Source: Ochrobactrum teleogrylli (GTDB lineage: Bacteria > Pseudomonadota > Alphaproteobacteria > Rhizobiales > Rhizobiaceae). From it: DNA of 64,000 nucleotides. The notes beneath the pieces are model-generated. The model saw nothing but the letters and a program-made list of their open reading frames with translations. It searched no databases and was not told where the DNA came from. Both the position numbers and the translations under genes were made by a program. Where the stretch lies: the NCBI RefSeq assembly GCF_006376685.1, contig NZ_VEWL01000011.1, positions 1 through 64,000 of the forward strand. Reading direction: 5' to 3'. Positions 20,551 through 43,333 of the stretch are shown piece by piece. How positions within the stretch are numbered: position 1 is the stretch's first letter; each line of letters starts with the position of its first letter.

Positions 20551-20642
20551 ATTTTGTTCCTTCATGTACCGGTAAACATCCCCGTTTCTAAAGAATGAGG
20601 AAATGCTCTATCGCTTTGGTTTCGCTAACCCCCGTCAGTCGC

Positions 20643-22346
20643 TTAAAACAGGAAATAGCGTTGCGCCATCGGCAGAACATCGGCTGGTTCACAGGTGATC
20701 AATTCGCCATCCACCCGCACCTGATAGGTTTGCGGATCGACCTCCAATTTGGGCGTAAGACCGTTGTGGATCATGTCCTTCTTGCGGACCGTTCTAATCC
20801 CTTTGACCGCAACCAATTGCTTGCTGAGTTTCAGCTTTTCGCCGATACCATCATCAAGCGCTGATTTGGAAACAAATGTGACGCCTGTGGAGCCAAGCGC
20901 CCGCCCCAACACACCATACATTGGACGGTAATGGACCGGTTGGGGCGTCGAGATCGATGCGTTGGGATCGCCCATCGGCGCAATCGCAATCATACCGCCG
21001 ATCATCACAAGGCTGGGTTTCACGCCGAAGAATTCCGGCTTCCACAATACAAGATCAGCCCGCTTTCCAACTTCGACAGACCCAATCTCATGAGCGAATC
21101 CATGCGTAATCGCCGGGTTAATCGTATACTTCGCGACGTACCGCTTGGCGCGGAAATTATCGTTCCGGCCGCTATCCTGACTCAGGGGGCCGCGCTGCAC
21201 CTTCATTTTATGGGCGGTTTGCCAACAGCGAAGCGTTGTCTCTCCAATGCGACCCATGGCTTGAGAATCCGATGACATCATCGAAAACACACCCAGATCA
21301 TGGAGTATGTCTTCTGCTGCAATCGTTTCGCGCCGAATGCGGGATTCCGCAAATGCCACATCCTCCGGAATTTTCGGGCTGAGATGGTGGCAGACCATCA
21401 GCATATCGAGGTGCTCATCGACCGTATTGATGGTGTAGGGACGGGTCGGATTGGTGGAGGACGGCAGAATATTTTCTTCGCCCGCCGCCGTAATGATGTC
21501 GGGAGCATGCCCGCCGCCGGCACCTTCCGTATGGAAACTGTGAATGGTCCTGCCTTTCATGGCAGCAAAAGTATCCTTGACGAACCCGCTCTCGTTCAGC
21601 GTGTCTGTATGAATGGCCACCTGAATATCTTCTTCGTCGGCGACGTTAAGACAATTATCGATGGCGGCAGGGGTGGTTCCCCAATCCTCGTGCAGCTTTA
21701 GGCCAACAGCACCGGCCCTGATCTGTTCACGCAGAGGTTCAGGCTTGCTTGCATTGCCTTTGCCCAACAAACCCACGTTGATCGGAAGCGCTTCTACAGC
21801 CTCCAGCATACGATGGATAGCCCATGGACCAGGCGTAACCGTCGTTGCAAGCGTACCAACCGTTGGTCCCGTTCCACCGCCAACCAAAGTGGTGGTGCCG
21901 CTGGCCAGCGCTTCTTCCGCCTGCTGTGGCGCAATGAAGTGAATATGCGTATCGATGCCGCCTGCAGTGAGGATCTTGCCCTCGCCCGCAATTACGTCGG
22001 TTGCAGGTCCAACGATGATGTCGACACCGGGTTGGATATCGGGATTACCTGCCTTACCGATCCCCGAGATACGACCATTCTTGATACCTACATCGGCTTT
22101 GATGATGCCCCAATAGTCGAGAATAATGACATTGGTGATCACCAAATCGGCGGTTTCGGCTGAAGGCCGCTGGCCCTGCCCCATGCCATCGCGAATAACC
22201 TTGCCGCCGCCGAAGGTTACTTCCTCGCCATAGATACAACGGTCATCCTCGACCTCGATGATGAGTTCGGTATCTGCCAGACGCACACGGTCGCCCTTTG
22301 TCGGGCCATAGAGTTCGGCATAGGCCTGCCTTGATATCCTCCCCAT
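20643..22346 (-). CDS. ureC: Urease alpha subunit (catalytic)
   Basis: Nickel metallo-amidohydrolase that hydrolyses urea to ammonia and carbamate; 567 residues, the standard length. Counting from the ATG, all nickel ligands fall at the Klebsiella positions: His134 and His136 (THIHF), Lys217 (GLKLHED, the carbamylated lysine), His246, His272 and Asp360. The catalytic flap His320 ([11 protein letters not shown]) is also kept. The protein should therefore be active. AGGAGG precedes the start. It is the fourth gene of ureDABC-channel, 9 bp after ureB. Confidence 0.97.
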
Positions 22347-22355
22347 CTGTCCCTC

Positions 22356-22661
22356 CTAAAGTTTCCCGTTGATTTTTGCGTTGAAGCCATAGACTTCCCG
22401 GTCGCCATCAAGCGCAACCAGTTCGACTTCACGATCCTGTCCCGGCTCAAACCGCACGGCAGTCCCCGCGGGAATATTGAGCCTGAAACCTCTCGTTCGC
22501 TCCCTATCAAAGACGAGCGCCTCATTGGTCTCATAGAAATGATAATGCGAGCCAACCTGTATCGGCCTGTCGCCGGTGTTCTCGACAGCAATGGTGCAGG
22601 TTTCGCGACCGTCGTTGAGGTCGATCGACCCGTCTTCGATGAAATATTCACCCGGTATCAT
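22356..22661 (-). CDS. ureB: Urease beta subunit
   Basis: Structural subunit of urease, 101 residues, with the family patterns [19 protein letters not shown] (start), [19 protein letters not shown] and [16 protein letters not shown]. It packs with UreA and UreC in the (ABC)3 enzyme. It is separate from ureA, as in most proteobacteria, with an unusual 100-bp spacer between ureA and ureB that holds a perfect hairpin. Confidence 0.95.
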
Positions 22662-22679
22662 GATCGTCTCCTGAAGCGC

Positions 22680-22709
22680 GTACCGAAAAGCGCCAAGCGT
22701 TTTCGGTAC
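22680..22709. repeat. Palindrome inside the urease operon (ureA-ureB spacer)
   Basis: gtaccgaaaa (22680-22689) and ttttcggtac (22700-22709) form a perfect 10-bp stem around a 10-base loop. The CCGAAAA/TTTTCGG arms recur in the hairpin at 43287-43333, suggesting a dispersed rhizobial palindromic element (RIME/REP-like). Here it lies between cotranscribed genes, where it could adjust mRNA stability or ureA to ureBC ratio. Confidence 0.6.
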
Positions 22710-22761
22710 AAGATGCGGGCAGAACCAAAAGCAAGAGCAATTTCGGTCATTCAGAAACGCA

Positions 22762-23064
22762 CTAAGGAATCGGGTTGTGAACGGTCACAAGTTTGGTGCC
22801 GTCTGGAAAAGTGGCTTCCACCTGAATGTCGTGGATCATTTCAGGCACGCCCTCCATCACCTCATCCCGGCTGAGAAGCGTGGCCCCGTAGGACATGAGT
22901 TCCGCGACCGTTTTACCGTCGCGGGCACCCTCCAGAATTTCAGCGGAGATGTAAGCCACAACCTCTGGATAGTTCAGTTTCAACCCTCTGGCTCGGCGTC
23001 GCTCCGCAACCAATGCTGCAGTGAAAATCAGAAGTTTGTCCTTTTCACGTGGCAATAGTTCCAT
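22762..23064 (-). CDS. ureA: Urease gamma subunit
   Basis: Smallest structural subunit of urease, exactly 100 residues from the ATG at 23064 ([14 protein letters not shown]). Family patterns are [23 protein letters not shown] (in parts), [21 protein letters not shown] and [18 protein letters not shown]. Longer upstream readings in this frame overlap ureD and are not supported. It is 23 bp after ureD. Confidence 0.95.
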
Positions 23065-23087
23065 CGGTAGACCCTCTCCAAAGTCAG

Positions 23088-23912
23088 TTATGTGGCCCAG
23101 ATGCGCGGTGCAGTGGCCGGTTTTCCTAATCCCATTTCGCGTAGAACCTCCCACGCCCTGCGAAATAGCGCCTTGGCTTCCGACATCCGCCCGCCGAGAT
23201 AGCGGCAGACAATCACCCTTTCCAGCCGCGACGCTGAAAACAGATTTCTGGCTGTGTCACCCACCGCTTCGCGAATGGCCTGAAGTGCGTTTTCCGCAGC
23301 CGGACCGGCATAAACCATCGTGGCAACAATTGGTTTGGCGCAAAATGCATAAGCCGCATTCACTGCTGGTGCGGCACCACGAAGGCGAAATTGTTCGAAC
23401 CAGATTGGCTTTCCGTCCCTGAATATTTCGACCCGTTGCCGGACTTCGCCCCTGTCGAAGCTTTCCTGACAGGCAGGACGCCCCAGACTGAAAATGTCCC
23501 ACCCCAGATAGACTGCATCACCGCTCAGGGAGACATGCGTGCTTATGGATGCTCTGGCGCCGTCAAAAACGATTGTTTCCTGCGGGAGATACTCGCATAT
23601 GCCACCTTCACTCACATCGATCCTAGTCGTCTGTGCGCTCTGGCCTCGCTCACTGCGATAGAATTTCGTGGCGCCCGGTGTTGTCAGAACAGCTCTGGCC
23701 TTGCGACCCAAAAAGCACGAAATATCAAGAATATCATCCCCTGCAACTCCACCCGGCGGATGAAGGAGATAGACATGCGCGCTGCCGTCTTTCTCAGGAT
23801 AAAAAGGCTGTTGAACCGCAAGGGGACCCACATGGCGCCGCCGCATCAGCCGCGTCACTTCACGATTATGCTCAAACCGAAGTTCAAGCTCTGCATGCCA
23901 ACCCTTGTTCAT
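23088..23912 (-). CDS. ureD: Urease accessory protein UreD (UreH)
   Basis: Urease maturation scaffold, 274 residues, that binds apo-urease first and recruits UreF and UreG. Typical motifs are [32 protein letters not shown] and [13 protein letters not shown]. It is the first gene of the minus-strand urease arm, preceded by about 246 bp with no gene (23913-24158), which presumably holds the promoter. Confidence 0.92.
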
Positions 23913-25594: not shown

Positions 25595-26056
25595 TTAGTG
25601 CATATTCTGGTTGCGGCTACGCTCCTGCGTCAGTTCTGCGGTGGTCTGGCCGAGCCGCTTCGCCAATTCTCGCATGATCGTGATGGCCATTTCCGGATAG
25701 TCACCGAGGATTTTCGTGAAATGCTCCTTGCTGATGCGCAAGGTCTCCAAAGGCGTCGCTGCTCTCACCGTCGCGGTGCGCCCCATATCGCACAAGATGC
25801 CAATTTCTCCAACGATGGAATTGGGCTGTGCATCGGCAACCTTGATGGGCCCGCTTGGTGAATCGACAAGAATATCCGCGCCACCCAGAAGGATCACATA
25901 GGCGGCATCGGATATGTCGCCCTGATGGAACAGCGTTTCACCGGGCTTGAAAGTCACGCGCTCAGAGGTGAAGGCGAGAAGCTTTAGCTTCGCCGGTTCT
26001 ATTCCAGCAAAGAACGGCATGCGCCGCAGCATTTCGACTTCATCCTTCAACAACAT
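25595..26056 (-). CDS. Stand-alone cyclic nucleotide-binding protein
   Basis: A 153-residue protein made almost wholly of one cNMP-binding (CRP/PKA-type) domain. Beta-roll features include FKPGETLFHQGDISDAAYVIL, and the phosphate-binding cassette is intact: VGEIGILCDMGRTATVRA, with the Glu that contacts ribose and the Arg that contacts phosphate. There is no helix-turn-helix, so it is not a Crp-type transcription factor; it more likely acts as a regulatory subunit. It lies 22 bp after the degenerate ABC protein gene and is probably cotranscribed with it. A nucleotidyl cyclase is encoded 5 kb away. Confidence 0.85.
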   Translation of the reverse strand: MLLKDEVEMLRRMPFFAGIEPAKLKLLAFTSERVTFKPGETLFHQGDISDAAYVILLGGADILVDSPSGPIKVADAQPNSIVGEIGILCDMGRTATVRAATPLETLRISKEHFTKILGDYPEMAITIMRELAKRLGQTTAELTQERSRNQNMH

Positions 26057-26078
26057 CGATCTTCCCTTTCATCCCGCC

Positions 26079-28793
26079 TTACGACAGCAAATCCTTAAGC
26101 GGTCCATCCTCCTGCATCAGCGCCTCATAGGTGCCATCCTGAACCACCCGCCCATGATCAAACACGATAACGCGGTCGAAATCTCTGGCGAGAGAAAAAT
26201 TACTCAACGCCCATATTATTGCGGGTTTATGACCTTCTTTATGCAGCGTATGCATAATATTTCCAGCGATCTGAAACTGGATACGCTGATCCAGTGATGG
26301 CAGCGGCCGGTTAAACACGACATAATCAGCATGTTTAAGCAGCGCTCGCGCCATATTGATTTTCTGGCGCTGCACACTGGTCAGTCGCTTGCCGCCCGAG
26401 CCGACATCAAAATCAAGCCCGATGATCAGGATTGTGCGCTGCTGGCCCGTTTCCTCGAAGAGATCGATGAGGATCGACCGGATTTTGTCCGACGCATTCA
26501 TCTGTCCATAGCTGATCTTGCCAAACAGCAGATTGTCGAGCAGCGTGGCGTGCTTGATGAAGCGGTCCGGTTCGTAAGGCTCGATCACGGCGCGCAGGTC
26601 GTCCGGCGTATCGCGCAGAAAGCGTGTTCTTGCCTTGAGAATCTTGGTCTTCAACGCGTCGGTCAGAAGGCCGAAACGATGCCGTGGCTCAATATAGGAG
26701 AAGCTGAGACGCACGATGTTGACGCGGTCTTCGTCCGAAACCGCATCAACACTGAGCCCCTTCACCCGCTGCAAAAGCGTCTCATATTCGGGAATGTCTT
26801 CCGGACGCATGAATGTCAGTTGCTGGAAGAACGGGTGGTCGGGCGGCAGATCGCGGAAAAGCTCGATAGCGTTTTCAGCGATTTCGAGGCTCATGGCGTA
26901 AAGATCGGCGAGAAGATCGTCCTCGCCGATTACCTCGCGGAAAAACGGATGCGCCGCCAGTTGCCGGATGGTCATGGAGGAGCGGTCGAGCACGCCGAAC
27001 AGCAGATTTTCACCCACCGTCGCCTGCGCGTTATAGACATCCGGCTCAAAGGGAATGACCAACGCCGCCATATCACCGCCGTCAAGCCGCTTACGTAACG
27101 CCTGCCGGAGTTCCACGATGCGGGAGATGAATTCCGGATGCGCAACCGTATCGACCTTCGACAGAAGCGCTATATCGAAAATGTCATGGGTGACCATCAC
27201 TGCGTCGAGGATGGGGCGCACGACGGCGTAGAGCCCGTCCCGTCCCGAAATGCCCATCGCCGCGTAATCCACCCAGTCGCTATTGAGATCGAAATCGGGA
27301 TTTCGCGCCCGGCGCGCCTCGGCAATTTGCCATTGCCGTTTTTTCGCGTCATCGCCTTCATAGGCAACCTTGGTCAGGGGCGCATGTCTGAGCCCGTAAA
27401 GCAGATTGTCGCGTAGGGAACCGCTGAAGAAATAGCCATCACCCGACGCATAGGCGATGCGCCGCCCGGTGACCGATTCAGGCATTTCGAGTAGATCATG
27501 ACCGTCGATGGCGACCCGCCCGGTTGCAGGCCAGACGAGTCGACCCAACAGTTCGGCAAATACATCGCTGCCACTGCCCGCAGGCCCGATCAGCGCGACG
27601 GTCTCGGTCGGCTTCAGCTCCAGGCTGACATGTTCCAGAATCGGCGCGCCGCTGTCGTCTTGCACCGTGACATTGCTGATGACGACCGGCTGATCGAGCG
27701 CAGGAACAGTGTCATAGTGGACCGATTGCACCTTCGGGGCGATGAGATTATCGACGCTGAACTGCTCGACCACTTGTGCATACTTGACCTGCACATCCTG
27801 GCGGTTCTGGTCCCAGTCGATCAGTTCCTTGAGTGGACCCGGTAGGTCCTTATAGGCATTGATGACGGCAACAAGCTGGCCGATATCGAGCCTACCCTGA
27901 AGCGCCAGAATACCGCCGATCATGTAGAACAGAAACGGTGTGACCTGAGCCAGAAAATTGTTGATGAACTTGACCAGAAATTTCCACTGATAAAGATCAT
28001 AGCGGATAGAGAAGATGTGCCCCAGCCGGTTGGCGATATCGGCCCGCTCGAAATTCGACGTATCGTTGCTGTGAATGGCGCTGATGCCGTCAACGATCTC
28101 GCCGACGCGGCCCGAAAGTTCCCGCGCCGACAATTGACGCTGGCGCCCCAGTTCCAGAAGCCGCTTTCGCATCCGGGGAATGATAATGCCCTGCGCGGCA
28201 ACAATGATCGCCGCAATCATGCCGAGCCAGAAATTCTGCATCAGGATGAAGACGAGCGCCGTCAGGGCCTGCCCGCCGAGAAGCGCCGGCTGCACAAAGG
28301 CGTCGCCGGTAAAGCCTCCAAGCGGCTCGACTTCGTCCTTGATCATGGTGGCGATTTCCGCCGAGCGGACGCGTTTGAAATGGAATGGCGGGAAACGCAG
28401 CACCCGGTCCACCAGCTCGAAACGGATGCGGCGTAGCATCCGTTCGCCAAGCCTGCCCTTATAGGTATTGATATAGAGCTTGAAGAGCCCGTTGATCACG
28501 ACCAGCAGCAGGAAAACCATGCTGAGGCCGATCAGCATCTGGATGCGGGTAAGCTGCAGCCCATTGAAGAACACCACCTCGCCCAGGATCGGGAAATCGT
28601 AGGTGATGCGCATGAAAGTCTGTGTGGCGCCCGGCTTCTCGAACCCTATGCCCTGAATGGGGCCGTTGATGATCTGCTTGGGCAGATCGAACGAGAGAAA
28701 ATAGGGGATCATCGAGACGGCGACGACAAAGAGAATCCAGGCTTGCTGGGCGCGTGTCGTGGACCAGATATAGCGAGCGAGGTTCTTTTCCAT
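26079..28793 (-). CDS. ABC-exporter-like protein with degenerate, expanded nucleotide-binding domain
   Basis: A 904-residue protein. Residues 1-330 form an ABC exporter-type membrane domain (helices near 15-35, 85-105, 165-205, 275-300). Residues about 370-904 resemble an NBD, but each ATP motif is altered: Walker A is GPAGSGSD (403-410, Lys replaced), the signature is LTSVQRQKINMARAL (804-818), Walker B is YVVFNRPLPSLD (824-835, lacking Asp-Glu), and the switch His is replaced in WALSNFSLARDFD. About 300 extra residues separate Walker A from the signature. Within them a segment of the xNLL(F/Y)G type occurs three times (463-467, 596-600, 753-758), two preceded by EPD, as if the Q-loop region had been triplicated. 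It probably does not hydrolyse ATP conventionally. Partnered with the cNMP-binding protein downstream. Confidence 0.78.
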   Translation of the reverse strand: MEKNLARYIWSTTRAQQAWILFVVAVSMIPYFLSFDLPKQIINGPIQGIGFEKPGATQTFMRITYDFPILGEVVFFNGLQLTRIQMLIGLSMVFLLLVVINGLFKLYINTYKGRLGERMLRRIRFELVDRVLRFPPFHFKRVRSAEIATMIKDEVEPLGGFTGDAFVQPALLGGQALTALVFILMQNFWLGMIAAIIVAAQGIIIPRMRKRLLELGRQRQLSARELSGRVGEIVDGISAIHSNDTSNFERADIANRLGHIFSIRYDLYQWKFLVKFINNFLAQVTPFLFYMIGGILALQGRLDIGQLVAVINAYKDLPGPLKELIDWDQNRQDVQVKYAQVVEQFSVDNLIAPKVQSVHYDTVPALDQPVVISNVTVQDDSGAPILEHVSLELKPTETVALIGPAGSGSDVFAELLGRLVWPATGRVAIDGHDLLEMPESVTGRRIAYASGDGYFFSGSLRDNLLYGLRHAPLTKVAYEGDDAKKRQWQIAEARRARNPDFDLNSDWVDYAAMGISGRDGLYAVVRPILDAVMVTHDIFDIALLSKVDTVAHPEFISRIVELRQALRKRLDGGDMAALVIPFEPDVYNAQATVGENLLFGVLDRSSMTIRQLAAHPFFREVIGEDDLLADLYAMSLEIAENAIELFRDLPPDHPFFQQLTFMRPEDIPEYETLLQRVKGLSVDAVSDEDRVNIVRLSFSYIEPRHRFGLLTDALKTKILKARTRFLRDTPDDLRAVIEPYEPDRFIKHATLLDNLLFGKISYGQMNASDKIRSILIDLFEETGQQRTILIIGLDFDVGSGGKRLTSVQRQKINMARALLKHADYVVFNRPLPSLDQRIQFQIAGNIMHTLHKEGHKPAIIWALSNFSLARDFDRVIVFDHGRVVQDGTYEALMQEDGPLKDLLS

Positions 28794-29014
28794 GAAGTCC
28801 CGTTTTGAGATCGATGGCCCGCCGGGCCGTGCTGCTATCGCGCCAACGCGGTCAATCGCTCTGTCTATACCTATGCATTCGCGAAACCTCCTCCGCTTTT
28901 GCCAGTATATTTGTAGTGCGTTTGCAACAAAATGGAAGTATCTCGCGTCACTTAAAAGCGGGATAACAATGGTTGAGAGAACTTAGTGCCGCAAACTGCG
29001 CAGCTTTAACGTTG

Positions 29015-29494
29015 CTAACGACGGCGATAAAGAAAATAGCGGTTCGCGGCCACGCTCTGCGGCAGAGGCATCGGCGTCAATTCAGGATGTTCGAGTGGCA
29101 ATCCGCAGGCAGCTATGCCACCGCGTTTCAGGAGCGACGCCACGGCATCGGGGAGCCAGGTTAGGGTCAGCGCATCCAGATCTTCATGACCAGTGCCGAT
29201 ATCGGCATGCACGAGCGCTGCCTCGATGCCGAGATAATCGCCAATCGTGTCCTTGATCTCACCGACCACCAGATTGTCGCCCTGAGGTGTCGAACGTTCG
29301 AAAGAACGCGCCACCCGATCAAAAGCGATGATCCGGCGATCCGGAAATAGCTCCCTGATATGATCATATGTGCGGCCGTTACCGAGACCAAGCTCCATGA
29401 TCGCACCGGGAATTTCGCGGACATCGTCTGCAATGCTGTTCAGGATATCGCGCTGGGCGCAAAGACGGCGGATGAAACTGTCGAGACGACTCAT
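29015..29494 (-). CDS. Small class I SAM-dependent methyltransferase-like protein
   Basis: A 159-residue protein beginning MSRLDSFIRRLCAQRDIL. The SAM-binding glycine motif appears as IMELGLGNGRTYDHI, followed by an acidic residue at the end of the next strand (IIAFDRVA). LVHADIGTGHEDLDALT and a final GGIAACGLPL segment fit a small Rossmann methyltransferase. The substrate is unknown. It lies 106 bp downstream of the nucleotide-sugar dehydrogenase gene and is likely cotranscribed, which suggests a sugar or lipid-sugar methylation role. The upstream ORF extension is not supported. Confidence 0.7.
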   Translation of the reverse strand: MSRLDSFIRRLCAQRDILNSIADDVREIPGAIMELGLGNGRTYDHIRELFPDRRIIAFDRVARSFERSTPQGDNLVVGEIKDTIGDYLGIEAALVHADIGTGHEDLDALTLTWLPDAVASLLKRGGIAACGLPLEHPELTPMPLPQSVAANRYFLYRRR

Positions 29495-29600
29495 GATCTG
29501 TTCTTCAATTTGCAAATGTCCGAGACGTCCGCTTACACAACGGCGGACGTAAAGTCGACCGCAACCGATGATGCACGGCTGCGACCCGACCTGAGGGTGA

Positions 29601-30950
29601 CTATGCCTTGACGATATTATCGCCGCTGATGGCGCGGCGTCCGAACGCATTTCTGGTATCAACGATCAACGGCGCCCATTTGGCCAGCGCCTGATAGTCG
29701 ATCTGATCGTGATCGGTGGCGATCAGCACAGCGTCAAAATTTCTGACAACCTCTTCGGTCAGCTCGACCGAGGCGCGACCGCGAAGTTCGATATATTCGC
29801 GCGTCGGCGGGATCGTTGAGACGAAGGGATCGTGATAATCGGTCGTTCCGCCACGGGCCTCAATCAGTTCGATCAGTTTAAGCGACGGGCTTTCGCGGAT
29901 ATCGGGAACATTTTTCTTGTAGGCGAGGCCGATTATCAGCACGCGCGAGCGGCTGACGGCTTTTCCGTGGCGGCGATCAAGCGCTTCGGCAAGACGGTCG
30001 ACGACATGACGCGGCATAGCCGAATTGATCTCACCGGCAAGTTCGATGAAACGCGTCGGCAATTCATATTCGCGCGATTTCCAGGTCAGGTAGAACGGAT
30101 CGATGGGAATGCAATGACCGCCAAGTCCCGGCCCCGGATAAAACGGCATGTAGCCAAACGGCTTAGTCTTTGCGGCTTCGATCACTTCCCAAATATCGAT
30201 GCCCATGGCCTCGTAGACGACCTTCAATTCGTTGACGAGAGCGATATTGACTGCCCGGAAGATATTTTCCGTCAGCTTTACCGCCTCGGCGGTTGCGTTG
30301 GATGAGACCGGAACGACAGTCTTGACCGCGGCTCCGTAAAAGACGGTCATAAGTTGCAAAGCCTCTGGGCCATCACCGGCGACAATCTTCGGGATGCTTG
30401 AGGTCTGGAAATCGCGGTTGCCGGGATCCTCGCGTTCTGGCGAAAAGCCGAGGAAGAAATCCACGCCGGAACGCAGGCCCGTGTTTTCCAGAACAGGCCG
30501 CACTACCTCATTGGTGGTGCCGGGATAGGTGGTGGATTCCAGCACGATCAGCTGACCAGCTTTTAAGGTTCGGGCAATCGCGTCACAAGTTTTGACGACG
30601 AATGACAGATCGGGGTCCCGCTGCTTGGTCAGCGGCGTCGGAACACAAATGATGATGACATCGCAATCGCCGAGACTTGAAAAGTCAGTCGTCGCACTGA
30701 AACGGCCTTCACCAACATGACGCCCCAGCACCGTATCGGACACGGCTTCGATATAGGATTTGCCATCGTCTATCATGACGATCTTGCCGGGGTCGATATC
30801 GAACCCTATGACGCGGAAACCGCTATTGGCGATGGTCATCGCCAGAGGCAAGCCGACATAGCCGAGGCCGATAACCCCCACGCGCGCCGAGCGATTGGCG
30901 ATAGCTGAAAACAGGTTCCCATGAAGCGGGGCAGAGTCGGTCAAGATCAT
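29601..30950 (-). CDS. Nucleotide-sugar dehydrogenase (UDP-GlcNAc/UDP-glucose 6-dehydrogenase family)
   Basis: NAD-dependent enzyme that oxidises C6 of a UDP-hexose twice to give a uronate. It has an N-terminal Rossmann GLGYVGLP (Gly28-Gly33 region), ICVPTPLTKQRDPDLS, the conserved ESTTYPGTT and FSPEREDPGN, and catalytic Cys280 in GLGGHCIPIDP. The length (449) and the SPEREDPG and KPFGYMPFYPGPG signatures favour the UDP-N-acetylhexosamine (WbpA/WecC-like) branch over a short UDP-glucose dehydrogenase. It supplies an acidic sugar for the polysaccharide genes nearby. Confidence 0.88.
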   Translation of the reverse strand: MILTDSAPLHGNLFSAIANRSARVGVIGLGYVGLPLAMTIANSGFRVIGFDIDPGKIVMIDDGKSYIEAVSDTVLGRHVGEGRFSATTDFSSLGDCDVIIICVPTPLTKQRDPDLSFVVKTCDAIARTLKAGQLIVLESTTYPGTTNEVVRPVLENTGLRSGVDFFLGFSPEREDPGNRDFQTSSIPKIVAGDGPEALQLMTVFYGAAVKTVVPVSSNATAEAVKLTENIFRAVNIALVNELKVVYEAMGIDIWEVIEAAKTKPFGYMPFYPGPGLGGHCIPIDPFYLTWKSREYELPTRFIELAGEINSAMPRHVVDRLAEALDRRHGKAVSRSRVLIIGLAYKKNVPDIRESPSLKLIELIEARGGTTDYHDPFVSTIPPTREYIELRGRASVELTEEVVRNFDAVLIATDHDQIDYQALAKWAPLIVDTRNAFGRRAISGDNIVKA

Positions 30951-31156
30951 AGCTCTCCGGCAATTGATATCCTTCAGTGGCGGATTTACGGGCCAGCTGT
31001 CAAGGATGCCGCCGATGGGTAACTATATGTTCACCGGAAACCGAGCGATTTTACTTTAGTGAAACTGGCTTTGCCACGATAACACGCTATATTGGTCGCA
31101 ATGATTTGCTGACGACCGGCCATGACATGGCTGACGGCTAGAAAGAATAACAAGCG

Positions 31157-32506
31157 ATGGATGTCCCCCGGATTCCTATTTCCGAAACATTGCTCAGCCC
31201 GGTTTTACACTGGCTACAACAATCTGCGCTCAATGGCGCAAGCCTCGAAACTCTGGCCGAAGGATTTTGTGAAAGGTTGGCGGCGGCTGGCGTGCCGCTG
31301 ATGCGCGTCCATTTAAGTTTTTCGATGTTGCATCCGCTTTACGACGCGCTCGGCTTCACCTGGATACGCGGCAAGGGCATGGAAATCGAGGGTTTTCGTG
31401 CTTCCACCAGCGAGAAGGATGCAGAGCGGTTTCTGACCAGCCCCTATTTCCATCTGCTTAGCAACAACCTGCAGTATCTGCGTCGTCAAATCGACCCATC
31501 TGCGCCATCGGAGTTCCCGGTTTTCGATGAATTGAAGGAAATCGGAGCCACCGATTATCTCGCCTTCGTGCAATCCTTCGGCGATGGCAACAGTCAGGGT
31601 ATGGTCGGCTCTTGGACCACAGATATCCCCGGCGGCTTCGGTGACGACGTGGTGGAGACATTGCTGAATATCCAGAACAGCCTGGCAATCGCCGCAAAGA
31701 TGGCGGTGCTCGGCAAGCTCGCAGACAATATGGTCACCACCTATCTTGGCGGCAATGCTGGCAAGCGCGTGTTATCCGGCCAGATTCGTCGCGGGGATGG
31801 AGAGACCATTCGCGCTGTGCTCGTCATGGGCGACATGCGACAATCGACGGACCTTGCCGAAAAGGCGGGCAGGCAGGTCTATATCGACACGCTCAACGAG
31901 TTTTTCGATGCAATCGCCGCGCCGTTCAACAAGAATGGCGGCGAGATTACGAGTTTTGTCGGAGACGGGTTCCTCGCAGTCTATCCCTGTGGTCGTCACC
32001 GGGAGCCGTCGCAGATCGCGGCGCGCGCGGCAATGGCGGCGGTACGGCAGGCAACGGCAGCCATGGCCGACATGAACAACGAGCGGAAAAAGAAGGGCCT
32101 CGACGAGGTCCGCTATGGAATGGGCCTACATGTCGGCAACGTGATGTTCGGCAATGTCGGCCTTAAGGACCGATTGACGTTCTCCACATTCGGCAGCGCC
32201 GTCAATGAAGTGTCGCGGTTGCAGGGGCTGACGAGGCTCTATCCAGATCATCCGATTATCGCCAGCGAGGCGTTCACCAACTATTGCGGTGGTGACTGGG
32301 TGACGCTGGGTGCGAAGAAATTGCGGGGCGTACAGGACAAGGTGACGATATTGGCGCCGGGTGGGGAAAACCTGAAGATGAGCAGTATTGAGGCAACCGG
32401 AAGGAACAAGCCGGATGCAGGCTCCGAAGCCGAGCAAGTGATGCTGCTTTTCCGCAACTCCCGCGACCGGAAGCCCCCGAAGCTTGAGGGGAACCTTCTT
32501 CAATGA
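31157..32506 (+). CDS. Class III adenylate/guanylate cyclase
   Basis: A 449-residue soluble protein. Residues 1-190 are a sensor-like N-terminal domain found with alphaproteobacterial cyclases; 215-395 form the cyclase catalytic domain. Metal-binding Asp226 (VMGDMRQST) and Asp270 (FVGDG) are present, as are transition-state Asn350 and Arg354 (AVNEVSR). Base-specifying positions differ from classical adenylate cyclases: Ser266 replaces the usual Lys and Ser347 the usual Asp (FGSAVN), so nucleotide specificity is uncertain. The stop codon overlaps the start of the lyase gene by 4 bp. A likely consumer of its product is the cNMP-binding protein encoded at 25595-26056. Confidence 0.85.
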   Translation: MDVPRIPISETLLSPVLHWLQQSALNGASLETLAEGFCERLAAAGVPLMRVHLSFSMLHPLYDALGFTWIRGKGMEIEGFRASTSEKDAERFLTSPYFHLLSNNLQYLRRQIDPSAPSEFPVFDELKEIGATDYLAFVQSFGDGNSQGMVGSWTTDIPGGFGDDVVETLLNIQNSLAIAAKMAVLGKLADNMVTTYLGGNAGKRVLSGQIRRGDGETIRAVLVMGDMRQSTDLAEKAGRQVYIDTLNEFFDAIAAPFNKNGGEITSFVGDGFLAVYPCGRHREPSQIAARAAMAAVRQATAAMADMNNERKKKGLDEVRYGMGLHVGNVMFGNVGLKDRLTFSTFGSAVNEVSRLQGLTRLYPDHPIIASEAFTNYCGGDWVTLGAKKLRGVQDKVTILAPGGENLKMSSIEATGRNKPDAGSEAEQVMLLFRNSRDRKPPKLEGNLLQ

Positions 32507-33468
32507 TCAAGACATGTGCTGTGGCACTGCTTCTATCCACCGTGTTTGTCCAAGTCTCAGCGATTGCCGATCCATTGAGCACACCTCTTTTCGATACTTT
32601 CGATGGTGAAGATTTTTCACCCACCGGCGGGCTTTATTACCGCGATAATGATGAACAGAAAGCGGGAACGGTCGAGTTCCAGAGTGCGGTCACCCGCACC
32701 GGACCGCGCGCTTTGAAACTGAGCGTGCGATCCGGTTGCAAGGCAACAACGGAAAACTGCAGCGAAAGGGCGGAGATCTGGGAAAAAACCGAGCTTCGCG
32801 TTCCTTACGACCAAGCCGTCTGGTATGGTTTTGCAGTAAAGTTCGCCGAACCCATCCCACAAGACGACCATCGCTATGTGATTGCGCAATGGAAGCGCGA
32901 GATCGGCCCCGGGACAAAAGGCGATTTCAGCCCGTTTCTGGCGGTGCGGCTCAACAAGGGCAAGCTCTTCATCACTGTGGAAACGAATTATCACCCGCCA
33001 GTCTCCACCGGGACCAAGGGCACAGCTGCGACATGCGATAAAGGGTCAACCCCGGTTTGGTTGCGGCCCGAAACCAACCAGATGCGGGCGCTTGTCGCGA
33101 CCGACGACAACTGGGTCGCGGAAGATGGCGGCCGCTTCTCGGCATGCACCGACAAAATCACTATCACGCCACGCGGCAACAGCCTTCCCTCTCCCGATTC
33201 CGGATGGATCGACTTTGCGATCATGACGAAACCCGGCCCGGACGGAACCGGCCATATCGAGATTTTCGCCAACGGTCTCTGGATCTCGACAATCAAAGGC
33301 TATATCGGCCACAACGATCCCGGATTGGGCAAGAACCAGTACTTCAAGTTCGGGCCATATCGTGCGGCTGGAACCGGCGAATGGTCGCTGTTTTATGATG
33401 ATTTCCGTAGGTCAGCCAACTGCAAGGACGTTCTTCGCGACAGCAACGCATGTGACCTCATCAAGTAA
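32503..33468 (+). CDS. Secreted polysaccharide lyase (heparin lyase I-like fold)
   Basis: A 321-residue protein with a signal peptide ending SAIADPLS. The body looks like a beta-jelly-roll polysaccharide lyase (PF14099 type): ALKLSVRSGCKA, ERAEIWEKTELRVPYDQAVWYGFAVKF (in parts), YVIAQWKRE, and a final YFKFGPYRAAGTGEWSLFYDDFRR motif conserved in this family. Several Cys pairs suggest periplasmic disulfides. Lyases cleave next to uronic acids, which fits the nucleotide-sugar dehydrogenase close by. It is translationally coupled to the cyclase (ATGA overlap), an unusual pairing. Confidence 0.8.
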   Translation: MIKTCAVALLLSTVFVQVSAIADPLSTPLFDTFDGEDFSPTGGLYYRDNDEQKAGTVEFQSAVTRTGPRALKLSVRSGCKATTENCSERAEIWEKTELRVPYDQAVWYGFAVKFAEPIPQDDHRYVIAQWKREIGPGTKGDFSPFLAVRLNKGKLFITVETNYHPPVSTGTKGTAATCDKGSTPVWLRPETNQMRALVATDDNWVAEDGGRFSACTDKITITPRGNSLPSPDSGWIDFAIMTKPGPDGTGHIEIFANGLWISTIKGYIGHNDPGLGKNQYFKFGPYRAAGTGEWSLFYDDFRRSANCKDVLRDSNACDLIK

Positions 33469-33629: not shown

Positions 33630-35522
33630 ATGATCTCAGGGACAGATTTCTTGAGGATCGAAAATCTGAGCATTTCCTTCACCTTGCTTGGTGGGAAGAT
33701 CATGGCCGTGAAAAAAGCCGATCTCCGTGTCCTGCCAGGCAAAGTCACCGCCCTTGTCGGCGAATCTGGTTCTGGAAAGTCTGTTATAAGTCAATCGGTT
33801 ATGGGAATTCTGCCGCGCACTGCTTCCGCGAGTGGCAAAATCCTTTTCCAAGACACCGACATGCCCGGCCAGCCGCCTATCGACATTCTCAGCCTGCCTA
33901 CTGACGGTCCAGAGATACGGGCGCTCCGTGGCAATCGCATCGGCAAGATTTTTCAGGAGCCGCTCACATCGCTGTCGCCGCTCCACACGATCGGCAACCA
34001 GATTTCGGAAGTACTGTCGATCCATACCAGGGATACAAAAGCCGAGCGGCGTGAGCAGACAGAGGAGATGCTTGGCCTCGTCGGCTTCAAGAACCCGACC
34101 CAGGCCTATGACAAATATCCGTTCGAACTGTCCGGTGGTATGCGCCAACGCGCCATGATTGCCATGGCGCTCATATGCAAGCCATCCCTGCTGATCGCCG
34201 ACGAACCGACCACGGCGCTTGATGTAACCATTCAGGCGCAAATTCTCGAACTGCTCGGCGAGCTTCGAGCCAAGCTCAACATGGCAATGCTGCTCATCAC
34301 GCACGATCTGGGCGTTGTCGCCAATGTCGCCGACGAGGTGGTCGTCATCTATCACGGCGAGATCATGGAATCGGGACCAGTTGAAACGATCTTCCGCAAA
34401 CCAGCCCATCCCTATCTCAAGGGTTTGATGGCCGCCGTGCCGCATTTCGACATGAAGCCGGGCGAACGTCTGAAATCCTTACGCGACGTGCCAGTCGATG
34501 TCGCCAAGTTGATGGGCAAGAGCAAAGCCGTCCATACGGATCGCAACAATGTGCTGCTCTCCGTGCGCGATGTATCCAAGACCTTCGCAGCCCGCAAAAC
34601 CCTTTTCGCAAAAGATGGCGGGCCGCCGACGCGGGCAGTCAATGACGTCAGTTTCGACGTATTGCGCGGCGAATGTTTCGGCCTCGTCGGCGAGAGCGGC
34701 TGCGGCAAGACCACACTGAGCAAAATCCTGATGCGCGCCGTCACGCCGGACGCAGGGTCCGTAATTTTCAACGGCGACACAGGCCCGATTGACATCCTAG
34801 ACGCCAGCGGCAACGACCTGCAGGCGTTACGCACCAAAATCCAGATGGTGTTTCAGGACCCGGTATCGTCGCTGTCGCCGCGCATGACCATCCAGAATAT
34901 TCTCAGCGAACCGCTGGAAATTCACGGGCGCGGAAATGCCAAATCCCGACTGGACAAGGTTGCCGACCTGATGGACGTGGTCGGCCTGAACCGCCGCTAT
35001 CTCAATCGCTATCCGCACGGTCTTTCGGGCGGCCAGCGCCAGCGCGTCGGCATCGCGCGGTCTCTGGCGCTCGGTCCAGAACTCATCTTGTGCGATGAAC
35101 CCGTATCGGCGCTCGATGTATCCGTACAGGCGCAAATCCTCAACCTTCTCAAAGATTTGCAGAAGGAACTCGGGCTTACTTACGTCTTCATTTCGCACAA
35201 TCTGGCGGTGGTGGATTATATGGCCGACCGGATCGCCGTGATGTGTGGCGGGCGGATTGTCGAAATCGCTCCACGTCGCACCCTGATGCGGGCGCCTGTC
35301 CATCCCTATACGAAATCGCTGCTTGCCGCCGTTCCATTTCCCGATCTCGACCGTCCACTTGACTTCGGCAAGCTCAGTGCCAGCGGTGCATCCGACAAAC
35401 GCAACTGGGGTATTCAGTTCCGCAACGACGGACCGGACGACATGCTGACGCCAATGGATCTGGGCGACGGGCACCTTGTGCTTGCGCGCAAGACCGCAGA
35501 CATGCGGGAGTTGAAGCCTTGA
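33630..35522 (+). CDS. Peptide/oligosaccharide-type ABC importer, fused double ATPase (DppD-DppF type)
   Basis: A 630-residue protein with two complete NBDs. The first has Walker A GESGSGKS, signature LSGGMRQR, Walker [13 protein letters not shown] and switch His in LLITHDLG. The second has [28 protein letters not shown] and FISHNLAV. Each half ends in the oligopeptide-family C-terminal pattern ([12 protein letters not shown] and [12 protein letters not shown]). It energises the permease pair downstream. The gene order ATPase, binding protein, permease, permease with 4-bp overlaps is a compact operon starting 161 bp after the lyase. Confidence 0.93.
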
Positions 35523-37414
35523 TCAATCGGCGAACGACACTGGGCATGCTTGCTTCCTGCTTTCTACCTGGTGTTTCGCGGGCGGATCCGCCTTTGCCGA
35601 ACTATTCACTGCCGCAGCCGGGCGCGCTGCCCGATCTGGCCGACCGTCTCCCCAAAACACCAAGGATCGTCAACATGGCGGCGCTTGGTCGCAAACCCGG
35701 CGTCAACGGAGGTGTCATCCGCACCCTGATTGGCAACCAGAAAGACATCCGGTTGATGACGCTCTACGGATATTCCCGTCTGGTGGGCTATGACGAAAAG
35801 CTCAACATGCATGCGGATATTCTCGAAAGTTTCGAGACAGTCGAGGACAGGGCTTTTACCTTCAAAATCCGCCCGGGGCACCGCTGGTCGGATGGTTCCT
35901 ATCTGACATCGGAGGATTTCCGCTATTGCTGGGAAGACGTGATGCTCAACACGGAGCTGAAGCGAGGCGGTCCGCCGAGGGTCTTGCTGGTCAATGGAAG
36001 GCCGCCGCGTTTCGAAGTCATTGACGAGTTGACAGTCAGATACAGCTGGGACGCGCCCAATCCGGATTTCCTGCCGCAACTGGCGGCGCCGCAGGCGCTG
36101 ACGATTGTTCTGCCGTCGCAGTATTTGAAACAATTTCACAAGACCTATCAGGACAATTTCCGGCTCTCGGCCCTGATGAAGCAATACCGCGTCAAGAAAT
36201 GGACTGACCTTCATTTCAATATGGCGCGCAGCTATCGGCCCGAAAACCCGGAACTGCCGACCCTCGATCCATGGCGAAACACAACCGCGTCGCCTGCCGA
36301 GCAGTTTGTTTTCGAGCGCAACCCGTATTTCCACCGCGTCGATGAAAACGGGGTGCAATTGCCCTATGTCGACAAAGTGATCCTGAATATCAGCTCCCCG
36401 ACAATCATTGCCGCCAAGACCGGCGCTGGTGAAAGCGATCTGCAGGCGCACGGCATCGACTTTTCTGACTACGCCTTTCTGAAGGATTCCGAAAAGCGGT
36501 TTCCGGTCAGGGTCAGCTTGTGGAAGCGGACGGAAGGTGCGCGGGTGAGCCTGATGCCCAACCTCAATGCCGGGGACGCCATTTGGCGGGCGCTCTTCTG
36601 GGATGTGCGCGTGCGCCGCGCCCTATCGCTCGCAATCGACCGGACCGAAATCAACAAGGCGGTGTTCTACGGTCTTGCCGTTGACAGCGCCAACTCCATC
36701 CTGCCCGAAAGCCCGCTCTACAAACCAGGATATAAAACGGCGTGGAGCGCCCATGATCCTGAACAAGCGAACGTCCTGCTGGACGCGGCTGGCCTGCAAC
36801 GGCGGGACGAGGACGGGATGCGCCTGTTGCCCGACGGGCGCGCAGCAAAGATCGTGGTAGAAACCGCCGGTGAAAGCACGTTGGAGACAGATATCCTCGA
36901 GCTTGTCACAGATCACTGGGCAAAGGTCGGCATCTCGCTGTTCATCCGGACATCCCAGCGTGACGTTTTCCGTAGCCGGGCCATGGGTGGCGAAATCATG
37001 ATGTCCATGTGGTCGGGGCTCGATAACGGCATACCGACCGCCGATATGAACCCGGGCGAGCTCGCCCCAACCTCGGACGACCAATTGCAATGGCCGGTCT
37101 GGGGCATGTATTACATGTCGAACGGAATGAAGGGCCATCCTCCGGAAATTCCCGAAGTAAAGCAGCTGATCGAGCTTCTCAGCCAATGGCGGGACTCCAG
37201 CGACATAGCCGAGCGGGCCACTATCTGGACGCAGATGCTGGATATCTATTCGCAGCAGGTGTTTTCCATCGGTATCGTCAACAGCACCCCCCAGCCCGTC
37301 TTGCGCGCGGCCAGCCTCCAGAATGTACCGGAGAAAGGGCTCTACGGCTTCGACCCGACCAGCTTTCTCGGCGTTTTTATGCCGGATGCGTTCTGGTATG
37401 GAAAGGACGCCTGA
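35519..37414 (+). CDS. Family 5 extracellular solute-binding protein
   Basis: Large (631 residues) periplasmic binding protein of the DppA/OppA type. It begins at a TTG overlapping the previous stop. The N-terminus [18 protein letters not shown] has a twin-arginine, so Tat export is possible. Diagnostic pattern: DILESFETVEDRAFTFKIRPG, HRWSDGSYLTSEDFRYCWEDV (partly shown), and RRALSLAIDRTEINKAVFYG. The family binds peptides but also oligosaccharides; the neighbouring polysaccharide lyase makes oligosaccharide uptake a reasonable idea, not shown by sequence. Confidence 0.9.
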   Translation: MINRRTTLGMLASCFLPGVSRADPPLPNYSLPQPGALPDLADRLPKTPRIVNMAALGRKPGVNGGVIRTLIGNQKDIRLMTLYGYSRLVGYDEKLNMHADILESFETVEDRAFTFKIRPGHRWSDGSYLTSEDFRYCWEDVMLNTELKRGGPPRVLLVNGRPPRFEVIDELTVRYSWDAPNPDFLPQLAAPQALTIVLPSQYLKQFHKTYQDNFRLSALMKQYRVKKWTDLHFNMARSYRPENPELPTLDPWRNTTASPAEQFVFERNPYFHRVDENGVQLPYVDKVILNISSPTIIAAKTGAGESDLQAHGIDFSDYAFLKDSEKRFPVRVSLWKRTEGARVSLMPNLNAGDAIWRALFWDVRVRRALSLAIDRTEINKAVFYGLAVDSANSILPESPLYKPGYKTAWSAHDPEQANVLLDAAGLQRRDEDGMRLLPDGRAAKIVVETAGESTLETDILELVTDHWAKVGISLFIRTSQRDVFRSRAMGGEIMMSMWSGLDNGIPTADMNPGELAPTSDDQLQWPVWGMYYMSNGMKGHPPEIPEVKQLIELLSQWRDSSDIAERATIWTQMLDIYSQQVFSIGIVNSTPQPVLRAASLQNVPEKGLYGFDPTSFLGVFMPDAFWYGKDA

Positions 37415-37416
37415 CC

Positions 37417-38415
37417 ATGCTGCGATATATTCTCTGGCGCATCGCAGCAATGATCCCCACGCTCATCATCATTTCCGCTCTGGTTTTCACCATCATCGAA
37501 CTACCGCCGGGCGACTATTTCGAAAGCTATGTGTCGGAGCTTCGCGCACAGGGCGAAGCGGTGGACATGCAGGAAATCGAGGAGCTACGCGTCCAGTACG
37601 GCTTCGATAAGCCGCCGGTTCTGCGCTATTTTCACTGGGTTGCTGGGATGTTGCAGGGGGATTTCGGCTATTCGTTCGAGTATCAGCTACCCGTCAGTGA
37701 CGTTGTGGGCGACCGGCTTTGGCTGACAGTGATGGTATCGTTCTTCACGATCATCTTCACATGGCTGATTGCTTTCCCGATCGGCATCTATTCGGCGACG
37801 CATCAATATAGCTGGGCGGATTATGGGCTGACGCTGATCGGCCTGCTTGGCATTGCGATCCCGAACTTCATGTTCGCGCTGATCCTGATGTATTTTGCCA
37901 ATATCTGGTTCGGCACCTCGATTGGACATCTCATGGACCAGAAATATCTGGCCGAACCAATGAGCTGGGCCAAGGCGTCCTCTATCCTGTCCCATCTTTG
38001 GATACCCGTGCTGATCGTCGGCACCGCAGGCACTGCCGGGATGATCCGGCGTTTGCGCGCCAATCTTCTCGACGAGTTGCAAAAGCAGTATGTGGTAACG
38101 GCGCGCGCCAAGGGTCTGCATCCTTTTCGCACGCTGGTAAAATATCCCCTGCGCATGGCGCTCAATTTTTTCATCTCGGATATCGGTTCGATCCTGCCCG
38201 CGATCATTTCCGGTGCTGAAATCACCGCAATCGTTCTTTCGCTGGAAACGACAGGGCCAATGCTCATAAAGGCCTTGCAGAGCCAGGATATGTATCTTGC
38301 AGGTTCGTTCCTGATGTTTCTCGCAACGCTGACGGTCATAGGCGTGTTGATCTCCGATATTGCGCTCGCGTTTCTTGATCCACGTATCAGATTGCAGGGG
38401 GGGAGCACAAAGTGA
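37417..38415 (+). CDS. ABC importer permease (DppB type)
   Basis: Inner-membrane permease of 332 residues starting MLRYILWRIAAMIPTLIIIS, 2 bp after the binding-protein stop; a longer reading in this frame overlaps that gene and is rejected. Features are the DppB-type N-terminus, FITIIE-like FTIIELPPGDYF, and the cytoplasmic EAA loop VVTARAKGLHPFRTLVKYPLR that contacts the ATPase. Six membrane helices are expected. Overlaps the next permease by 4 bp. Confidence 0.92.
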   Translation: MLRYILWRIAAMIPTLIIISALVFTIIELPPGDYFESYVSELRAQGEAVDMQEIEELRVQYGFDKPPVLRYFHWVAGMLQGDFGYSFEYQLPVSDVVGDRLWLTVMVSFFTIIFTWLIAFPIGIYSATHQYSWADYGLTLIGLLGIAIPNFMFALILMYFANIWFGTSIGHLMDQKYLAEPMSWAKASSILSHLWIPVLIVGTAGTAGMIRRLRANLLDELQKQYVVTARAKGLHPFRTLVKYPLRMALNFFISDIGSILPAIISGAEITAIVLSLETTGPMLIKALQSQDMYLAGSFLMFLATLTVIGVLISDIALAFLDPRIRLQGGSTK

Positions 38416-39590
38416 CATCATCACCCCTCCCCGAACCGGGCGCACGCCTGCCTCACTTTGTTTCGACAGAGCCTTTTGATCCGCATTCGGTCGATGTCAT
38501 GACCGAAGAGCAGAGCCGCTTTTATCGGGCGTCTCAGCTCCAGCTGATGTGGTGGAAATTCAAAAAGCATAAGCTGGCGCTTGCCTCCGCCATCTTCCTC
38601 GGCGCGCTTTATGTGATGATCGCCTTCGTTGAATTCCTCGCGCCTTATAATCTTCATACACGCAATGTCGATTTCATCTATGCACCGCCGCAGGTGGTCC
38701 GCCTTTTTGACAACGGCAATTTCATCGGGCCGTTCGTCTATGGCCGCAAGATGACGCTCGATATGGACACGCTGCGACGGGTCTATGTGGATCAGAAAGA
38801 CCAGATCGAACCGCTGCGTTTTTTCTGCTCGGGCGATCCCTATAAATTCTGGGGCATATTCTCGACGGATTTACATCTGGTCTGCCCTGCAAAGGGCGGC
38901 GAGCTGTTCCTTCTCGGCACAGACCGACTCGGGCGAGACGTGCTATCCCGCATCCTCTATGGCGCTCGAATCTCGCTGACAATCGGTCTGATCGGCATTG
39001 TCATCAGCTTTACTCTCGGAATTGTTATCGGTGGCCTTGCCGGCTACCATGGTGGCGTTTTCGACCTCATCGTCCAGCGAATCATAGAGGTACTGCAGTC
39101 TATTCCAAGCATTCCACTGTGGATGGCCCTTGCGGCCATCATGCCGATTACATGGAGCCCGATGCTGATTTACCTCGGTATTACCGCCATCCTTGGACTG
39201 CTTGACTGGACTGGGCTGGCGCGCGCCGTGCGTTCCAAGTTGCTTTCACTTCGCGAGGAAGACTACGTGCTAGCGGCCCAGCTGATGGGCGCAAAGAGTC
39301 CCCGCATTATCGGACGGCATCTCATTCCCGGCTTCATGTCGCACTTGATCGCAACTGCAACCATGTCTATTCCCGGTATGATCCTGGGTGAAACTGCGTT
39401 GAGCTTTCTCGGCCTGGGGTTACGGGCGCCAATAACCAGTTGGGGCATCCTTTTGACGGAAGCCCGAAGTGTAAGTGTTATTGTCTTCTACCCCTGGCTG
39501 CTGTTTCCGATCATTCCGGTCATTCTGGTGGTTCTGGCCTTCAATTTTCTAGGTGACGGTCTTCGCGATGTCGCTGATCCGTATAGTTGA
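38412..39590 (+). CDS. ABC importer permease (DppC type)
   Basis: Second permease of the importer, 392 residues, from a GTG overlapping the previous stop. A long hydrophilic N-terminus (about 55 residues) precedes TM1; the typical GTDRLGRDVLSRILYGARIS motif and EAA loop EDYVLAAQLMGAKSPRIIGRH follow. The region between TM1 and GTDRLGRD is longer than usual (about 90 residues), as in YejE-like permeases. It is the last gene of the importer, 72 bp before a glycosyltransferase gene. Confidence 0.92.
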   Translation: MTSSPLPEPGARLPHFVSTEPFDPHSVDVMTEEQSRFYRASQLQLMWWKFKKHKLALASAIFLGALYVMIAFVEFLAPYNLHTRNVDFIYAPPQVVRLFDNGNFIGPFVYGRKMTLDMDTLRRVYVDQKDQIEPLRFFCSGDPYKFWGIFSTDLHLVCPAKGGELFLLGTDRLGRDVLSRILYGARISLTIGLIGIVISFTLGIVIGGLAGYHGGVFDLIVQRIIEVLQSIPSIPLWMALAAIMPITWSPMLIYLGITAILGLLDWTGLARAVRSKLLSLREEDYVLAAQLMGAKSPRIIGRHLIPGFMSHLIATATMSIPGMILGETALSFLGLGLRAPITSWGILLTEARSVSVIVFYPWLLFPIIPVILVVLAFNFLGDGLRDVADPYS

Positions 39591-43286: not shown

Positions 43287-43333
43287 ACGCACATCTTGTC
43301 CGAAAACCGTTTCACACTTTTCGGGATGTGCGT
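43287..43333. terminator. Bidirectional hairpin between convergent genes
   Basis: acgcacatc (43287-43295) pairs perfectly with gatgtgcgt (43325-43333). The inner arms tccgaaaa and ttttcggg extend the stem. The structure fills the 58-bp gap between the convergent glycosyltransferase and methyltransferase genes and could terminate both. Its CCGAAAA arms match the palindrome at 22680-22709. Confidence 0.65.

Follow-up and report, generated by a model that had tools for sequence, protein, structure and literature searches.

Organisation of the locus

The 64,000 nucleotides of Ochrobactrum teleogrylli DNA analysed here (contig NZ_VEWL01000011.1, positions 1 to 64,000 of the forward strand; hereafter the window) contain, from ~25.6 kb to ~48.7 kb, a conserved neighbourhood in which a stand-alone cyclic nucleoside monophosphate (cNMP)-binding protein is encoded beside a pseudo-ATP-binding cassette (pseudo-ABC) protein, termed pABC, together with a class III nucleotidyl cyclase and genes for glycan assembly, a set that may constitute a local signalling circuit acting at the cell surface. 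A first-pass annotation had singled out 25595..33468 for a stand-alone cNMP-binding protein, a degenerate ABC protein and a cyclase gene overlapping a polysaccharide lyase gene; Pfam matches and a 4-base overlap establish that these genes are real. Its span takes in the pair and the cyclase and falls short of the full extent of the conserved set, whose components are as follows.

25595-26056, minus strand: stand-alone cNMP-binding protein, 153 residues (PF00027, E 7.6e-18), with a canonical phosphate-binding cassette
26079-28793, minus strand: pABC, 904 residues (PF00664, E 2.2e-15, and the front part of PF00005), 22 bp ahead of the cNMP gene
29015-29662, minus strand: S-adenosylmethionine methyltransferase (Methyltransf_17; PF12692, E 1.9e-58, match from residue 57); the open reading frame (ORF) overlaps the next gene and the real start probably lies inside it
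29601-30950, minus strand: nucleotide-sugar dehydrogenase (TIGR03026, 429.9 bits, above the cut-off of 189.8); the Rhizobium leguminosarum counterpart is RL_RS30040
31157-32506, plus strand: class III nucleotidyl cyclase (PF00211, E 6.5e-8)
32503-33468, plus strand: polysaccharide lyase, an optional part (PF14099, E 2.8e-35), sharing 4 bases with the cyclase gene
33630-35522, plus strand: double ATPase of an oligopeptide-type importer (PF00005 in two stretches, PF08352); full-length NCBIfam matches (e.g. GsiA, YejF) are all below cut-off
35519-37414, plus strand: substrate-binding protein, family 5 (PF00496, E 4.8e-55)
37417-38415, plus strand: importer permease (PF00528, PF19300)
38412-39590, plus strand: importer permease (OppC_N; PF00528, PF12911)
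39663-40874, plus strand: glycosyltransferase GTa, GT28-like (PF04101, E 1.9e-11), in conserved order
40879-42126, plus strand: glycosyltransferase GTb, GT4-like (PF00534, E 7.6e-34)
42108-43274, plus strand: glycosyltransferase GTc, GT28-like (PF04101, E 4.5e-15)
43333-44043, minus strand: unassigned protein, a recurrent neighbour (23 matches in the six-frame set); no match in Pfam at 0.001 or NCBIfam at 0.01
44079-45845, minus strand: calcineurin-like phosphoesterase, a recurrent neighbour (PF00149, E 7.5e-10; 19 matches in the six-frame set)
45968-46816, plus strand: metallo-beta-lactamase (MBL)-fold hydrolase, candidate cyclic-nucleotide phosphodiesterase (PF12706; NF041851)
46813-47565, minus strand: polysaccharide-deacetylase-like protein; no Pfam match at 1e-3, with family members in R. 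leguminosarum and Azospirillum annotated 'polysaccharide deacetylase'
47565-48656, minus strand: glycosyltransferase GTd, GT4-like (PF00534, E 1.2e-25)

A cNMP-binding protein paired with pABC

pABC loci were compared in a first set of 130, comprising 45 from relatives in the same order, 80 named loci (flanks of up to 10 kb per side) and five plasmid loci, and in a further 40 from genomes of other orders (flanks of up to 8-9 kb per side). At 126 of the 130 the cNMP gene lies directly downstream of pABC, on the same strand and within 600 bp, and at the remaining four (G073, G102, Ruegeria L231 and Azospirillum L232) pABC has the cNMP domain fused to its C-terminus; among the 40 loci of other orders the pair is adjacent at 38, fused at one and not found at one, on a contig of 4,987 bases. 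Linkage of the two proteins is close to certain, and the natural fusions are strong evidence that they function as a single unit.

The cassette motif G-E...R-(T/S)-A is represented in the 126 separate proteins of the first set by Gly in 126, Glu in 124, Arg in 126, Thr/Ser in 124 and Ala in 126, and in 39 separate proteins from outside the order by Gly in 39, Glu in 37, Arg in 39 and Ala in 39. By eye, fusions G073 and G102 retain it; in L231 and L232 Asp replaces Glu, and the residues after Arg differ. A paralogue (L235, G000:C8:41868-42299) is a second stand-alone cNMP-domain protein that keeps Glu and Arg and not the residues that follow; matches of this type also occur in same-genus genomes without a class III cyclase.

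According to one report (PMC10127613), cAMP/cGMP receptors in bacteria are most often Crp-Fnr transcription factors. The cyclase might serve a CRP-type transcription factor, its position beside pABC reflecting the layout of a regulon. The same report describes a precedent, the cAMP/cGMP-controlled regulator Clr of Sinorhizobium meliloti, whose overexpression raises succinoglycan. However, the 153-residue locus protein has no Pfam domain besides PF00027 at E 0.01, and neither a DNA-binding domain nor the C-terminal helix-turn-helix that defines the CRP/FNR transcription factors was found in it, in keeping with the receptor lacking a DNA-binding domain that the first-pass annotation had described. 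Moreover, only the locus protein among the seven PF00027 proteins of the window genome has the canonical cassette; the six others lack the canonical pocket, the best alternative keeping only Glu and Arg and being, at 153-155 residues, too short for a DNA-binding domain. We regard a CRP-type target as improbable. As described there, Clr likewise connects rhizobial cNMP signalling with an effect on exopolysaccharide, but it is a DNA-binding regulator, whereas the locus receptor is tied to a membrane protein. The channel SthK and the acetyltransferase Pat, both found as PDB matches, also have a cNMP domain that controls an effector other than transcription; unlike these, the effector proposed here is an ABC-exporter-type protein, and the receptor is usually a separate subunit.

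Degeneration of the pABC nucleotide-binding domain

The membrane domain of pABC is recognisably that of an ABC exporter, as the PF00664 match listed above indicates. Its nucleotide-binding domain (NBD) is split and degenerate, PF00005 being matched only over positions 1-82 of 137 (E 1.1e-9), and the helical region is internally duplicated (residues 545-690 against 700-850; hhalign, probability 98.9%, E 2e-17). The Walker A Lys is absent from all 130 pABCs of the first set, and in none of the 170 pABCs overall do the Walker A Lys and Ser/Thr and the Walker B Asp and Glu occur together, as they would in a canonical ABC exporter; a quirk of one genome was rejected as the explanation on this basis. 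In ABC exporters the NBD is usually better conserved than the membrane domain, and pABC shows the reverse, with mean conservation across 78 pABCs of less than 70% identity of 64% for the membrane domain vs 49-51% for the NBD parts. Exporters of the MsbA and ChvA type are resembled in the membrane-domain match and the broken NBD profile matches, although scores against the NCBIfam models for MsbA and the ChvA glucan exporter are far below cut-off and pABC, unlike that kind, has lost catalytic residues, carries the duplicated helical region and has a cNMP partner or fusion.

Some ABC exporters are heterodimers in which one site is degenerate, and pABC could be the degenerate half of such an ATP-driven exporter, with an active half encoded elsewhere and cNMP tuning the heterodimer; other ABC exporter-like proteins in the window genome are consistent with this. 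However, the locus listings, inspected by eye, show no additional ABC-exporter-type gene in a constant position, and the absence of a full catalytic set throughout the 170 also counts against this arrangement, which we consider quite unlikely.

The pABC family occurs in 59 of 190 genomes of a class sample, and in 15 of 200 genomes of a phylum sample in which the proportion from outside the class is unstated, all 15 belonging to the class. The host is near to Brucella of the Ochrobactrum type, since the closest named pABC relatives include those of Ochrobactrum sp. RH2CCR150 (93%) and Brucella haematophila (94%), from a scan that may omit records of the window's own genome. In one relative (G001:C3:709910-712075) pABC is present only as broken pieces, one with stops; that genome is 85% complete and 7% contaminated, and the break may be an assembly fault.

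Linkage to a class III cyclase

Among the 45 loci of same-order relatives, 28 have a class III cyclase no more than 5 kb from pABC (~0.8 expected), 29 have one at up to 10 kb (1.5 expected) and 33 at up to 20 kb (~2.5 expected); with six near-identical same-genus loci removed, the 5-kb count is 22 of 39. Expectations were computed from the PF00211 count and size of each genome, and are slightly low because six of the 45 genomes (G052, G062, G106, G107, G108 and G111) had more than 25 candidates, of which 25 were scored; several loci stop at contig edges, which lowers the observed linkage, and G001 and G116, with pABC in pieces or at a contig end, were left out. Linkage so far above expectation supports well, within the order, the local cNMP circuit suggested by the first-pass annotation, and a circuit shared by the pair and the cyclase is likely in the window's lineage.

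The wider distribution of the two families was also compared. PF00211 was found in all nine pABC-bearing genomes of a 35-genome genus sample and in none of the 26 others (Fisher 1.4e-8, a value that ignores shared ancestry), and class III cyclases occur in 47/47 relatives with pABC vs 27/73 without, and in 40/40 other-order genomes with pABC (2 to 48 each) vs 13/18 without. Within the window genome PF00211 matches a single protein at E <= 1e-4, the locus cyclase, and a search for class I cyclases found none, classes III (by PF00211) and I being those examined. The locus cyclase is probably soluble, judged by eye, and the residues that presumably bind metal (Asp226, 37 of 37; Asp270, 36 of 36) or stabilise the transition state (Arg354, 36 of 36; Asn350, 33 of 36, one row being gapped) are retained in its orthologues; the locus cyclase itself has the metal Asp and the transition-state Arg.

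The MBL-fold hydrolase and the travelling module

The MBL-fold hydrolase, 59% identical to its R. leguminosarum counterpart, lies directly after the cNMP gene at 22 of the 45 relatives' loci and 10 of the 80 named loci. It matches NF041851, a phosphodiesterase family that we take to be of the mycobacterial Rv1339 type, over its full length (E 3.6e-13), yet with 49.5 bits vs a cut-off of 400, and a proven phosphodiesterase is not claimed; among five other MBL-fold proteins of the window genome that were scanned, one scores 18.2 bits and four have no match at 0.01.

In Agrobacterium vitis (L209) the module runs MBL hydrolase, 2Fe-2S-domain cyclase, soluble cyclase, pABC and cNMP gene, and Rhizobium sp. 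FKY42 (L207) has the same genes with the addition of a DUF3095 gene between its two cyclases; the examined flanks of both contained none of the window's glycosyltransferase families (10 of 36 listed ORFs Pfam-scanned). These minimal modules support the view that the MBL hydrolase and the cyclases belong to a single signalling unit. At L209:6560-8275, L207:5245-6966 and L234:1329-3047 the module is accompanied by class III cyclases that carry a 2Fe-2S ferredoxin domain, which suggests a redox input. DUF3095 genes recur in or near the module (L207:7019-8182; RL_RS30050 on pRL11), and in A. vitis a GGDEF-EAL gene for cyclic di-GMP (c-di-GMP) turnover (L209:3429-5399) precedes it.

The glycan neighbourhood

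With profiles made from the window genes, the order around pABC in relatives is GTa-GTb-GTd-GTc-deacetylase, often divergent from pABC-cNMP-MBL, and the four-gene oligopeptide-type importer accompanies this set. On pRL11 of R. leguminosarum 3841, and likewise in R. etli, one strand carries in succession the cyclase, the importer genes, three glycosyltransferases, pABC and the cNMP gene; a second group on pRL11, comprising an Fe-S cyclase, GTd, the deacetylase and the MBL hydrolase, lies 10-17 kb beyond the cyclase. Besides pABC, no outward translocator (Wzx, Wzy and ABC-2 models) was detected in a Pfam scan of 19 proteins of the locus.

At 30 of 45 relatives' and 71 of 80 named loci, three or more of the five glycosyltransferase/deacetylase genes are no further than 15 kb from pABC, and at least three were found at 29 of 40 loci outside the order; the relatives' neighbourhoods, which the first-pass annotation had asked to be compared, do therefore place the pair near both cyclase and glycan genes. 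The lyase, also named in that annotation, turned out to be optional and was rejected as a core partner, with a match within 20 kb at 12 of the 45 relatives' loci and, in the shorter flanks of the named loci, at 8 of 80. These counts also bear on the possibility that the pair is a general cNMP-gated membrane device, i.e. a channel, scramblase or scaffold, with a target other than glycan and with glycosyltransferase neighbours by inherited arrangement. Loci L207, L209, L210 and L224 are without the window's glycosyltransferase families, the Ruegeria fusion is located among unrelated genes, and 11 of the 40 other-order loci have fewer than three of the five genes in the examined flank, all of which would suit such a device; the recurrence of glycan genes at most loci of all three samples argues against it, and we hold it to be unlikely, if the most plausible of the alternatives considered.

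Outside the order a Methyltransf_17-like gene adjoins the cNMP gene at 22 of 40 loci (L278-L309). In the window, urease genes with a urea-transporter-like gene (19507-23912) flank the locus and a repetitive autotransporter-like ORF of 2410 residues (53957-61189) lies beyond the glycan genes, both recognised by eye.

Published R. leguminosarum mutants

By arithmetic on RL_RS tags, pRL110056 corresponds to the nucleotide-sugar dehydrogenase, pRL110066 to the Fe-S cyclase (PF00211 and Fer2) and pRL110071 to the MBL hydrolase; the tags for the cNMP protein, pABC and the cyclase are pRL110046, pRL110047 and pRL110055. This mapping fits the published descriptions of pRL110007, 037 and 043 and, weakly, 044 (hypothetical), and drifts to +4/+5 at rhaD (415) and thiD/thiM (441/443); we infer that it is one-to-one as far as 071 from sequential WP numbers, read as the order of the original annotation. 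In the portions of the reports available, pRL110056 is among the O-antigen genes important for root colonisation (PMC11103875), attachment of a pRL110071 mutant to pea roots is 28, 33 and 20% of wild type at pH 6.5, 7.0 and 7.5, respectively (PMC11406972), and pRL110066 and pRL110071 belong to a set of 14 loci with transposon insertions that bear on nickel/cobalt tolerance of strain UPM1137 (PMC6266702); none of these portions treats the genes as one system.

Proposed mechanism and its assessment

We lean, by a modest degree, towards a local cNMP circuit that acts post-translationally, through the pseudo-ABC membrane protein and without a transcription factor, on the assembly or export of an acidic surface glycan. 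The class III cyclase would produce a cNMP (cAMP or cGMP), which the stand-alone cNMP protein would bind; this protein would serve pABC as a regulatory subunit that can detach. pABC itself is a membrane protein of the exporter type, and in the window's lineage its NBD no longer looks able to hydrolyse ATP. The state of the ligand could then alter pABC and hence how an acidic glycan, putatively built by GTa-GTd, the deacetylase and the nucleotide-sugar dehydrogenase, is assembled or moved outward; the MBL hydrolase would probably reset the signal by degrading cNMP, and the lyase and oligopeptide-type importer may release and recover glycan fragments. We infer ligand binding, docking, gating, glycan chemistry and phosphodiesterase activity, and indeed everything beyond the pair acting as one unit; for gating of a glycan by the pair we put the chances at about even.

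Several observations weigh against this interpretation, the first being that ligand, docking and gating are predicted from sequence and gene context. Locus counts in the first set are not independent because several loci come from one organism represented twice, and shared phylogeny also links the counts: 78 of the 170 pABCs remain after filtering below 70% identity. Outside the order the cyclase was found in the examined flank at 4 of 40 loci and the MBL hydrolase at 1 of 40, so the local circuit is not universal and universal cyclase linkage was rejected; the cyclase link appears to belong to one lineage, and the pair with glycosyltransferases to be the older core. Fewer than three of the five glycan genes are nearby at 15 of the 45 relatives' loci as well as at the 11 of other orders mentioned above, some of these from short contigs. 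The MBL hydrolase scores higher on RNase Z models, in two stretches. The product of the cyclase is also uncertain: where we take the substrate Lys to belong, the locus cyclase carries Ser, as do most of the 37 orthologues (28 with Ser, one with Lys, one gapped), and the partner position is Ser in 32, Thr in 4 and a gap in 1, so that the pair of Lys and Asp/Thr expected of a cAMP-making class III cyclase is lacking; this lowers the likelihood that cAMP is made and leaves the assignment as a cyclase intact.

A further counterpoint comes from the 40 pABCs of other orders, of which 26 keep the Walker A Lys and 24 the Walker B Glu, so that an ancestral pABC may still have bound or hydrolysed ATP; the idea that the Walker A Lys was lost everywhere was wrong. 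In 34 of the 40 the residue after this Lys is Glu/Asp, and three retain the Walker B Asp. As catalytic residues differ between the first set and these other orders, the ATPase site seems to have decayed in steps.

Exopolysaccharide systems gated by c-di-GMP include BcsA-PilZ, PelD and Alg44. The locus as proposed would share with them a second messenger, post-translational action and surface-polysaccharide machinery encoded nearby; unlike them, it has a mononucleotide-type receptor domain, a class III cyclase and a pseudo-ABC protein, and no match to PilZ, GGDEF or processive synthase models was found in the 19 locus proteins scanned. Because the locus lacks the hallmarks of c-di-GMP-gated systems and pABC the catalytic set of an ABC exporter, we rate the system as a new kind with an unproven mechanism. 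The first-pass annotation knew of no described system of this composition, and none combining pABC, cNMP protein, cyclase and glycan genes was found in searches of the open-licence PMC literature. That a pseudo-ABC protein without ATP hydrolysis, gated by a dedicated cNMP subunit and served by its own cyclase and phosphodiesterase, switches surface-glycan assembly or export, and thereby represents a new class of cNMP effector, is a proposal we advance tentatively, thinking it somewhat more doubtful than not.

Few cyclases of S. meliloti have, in our judgement, known outputs. The species has 28 putative adenylate/guanylate cyclase genes (PMC10127613), and the receptor/pseudo-transporter pair would give such cyclases a direct, testable, non-transcriptional target. 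It offers a cNMP counterpart to the control of surface polysaccharide by c-di-GMP and, if the proposal is true, an ABC-type protein that has lost its ATPase site but kept a ligand-binding regulator. The pairing of receptor and pseudo-transporter within a surface-glycan cluster, conserved in many soil- and plant-associated bacteria, suggests an undescribed control of cell-surface composition.

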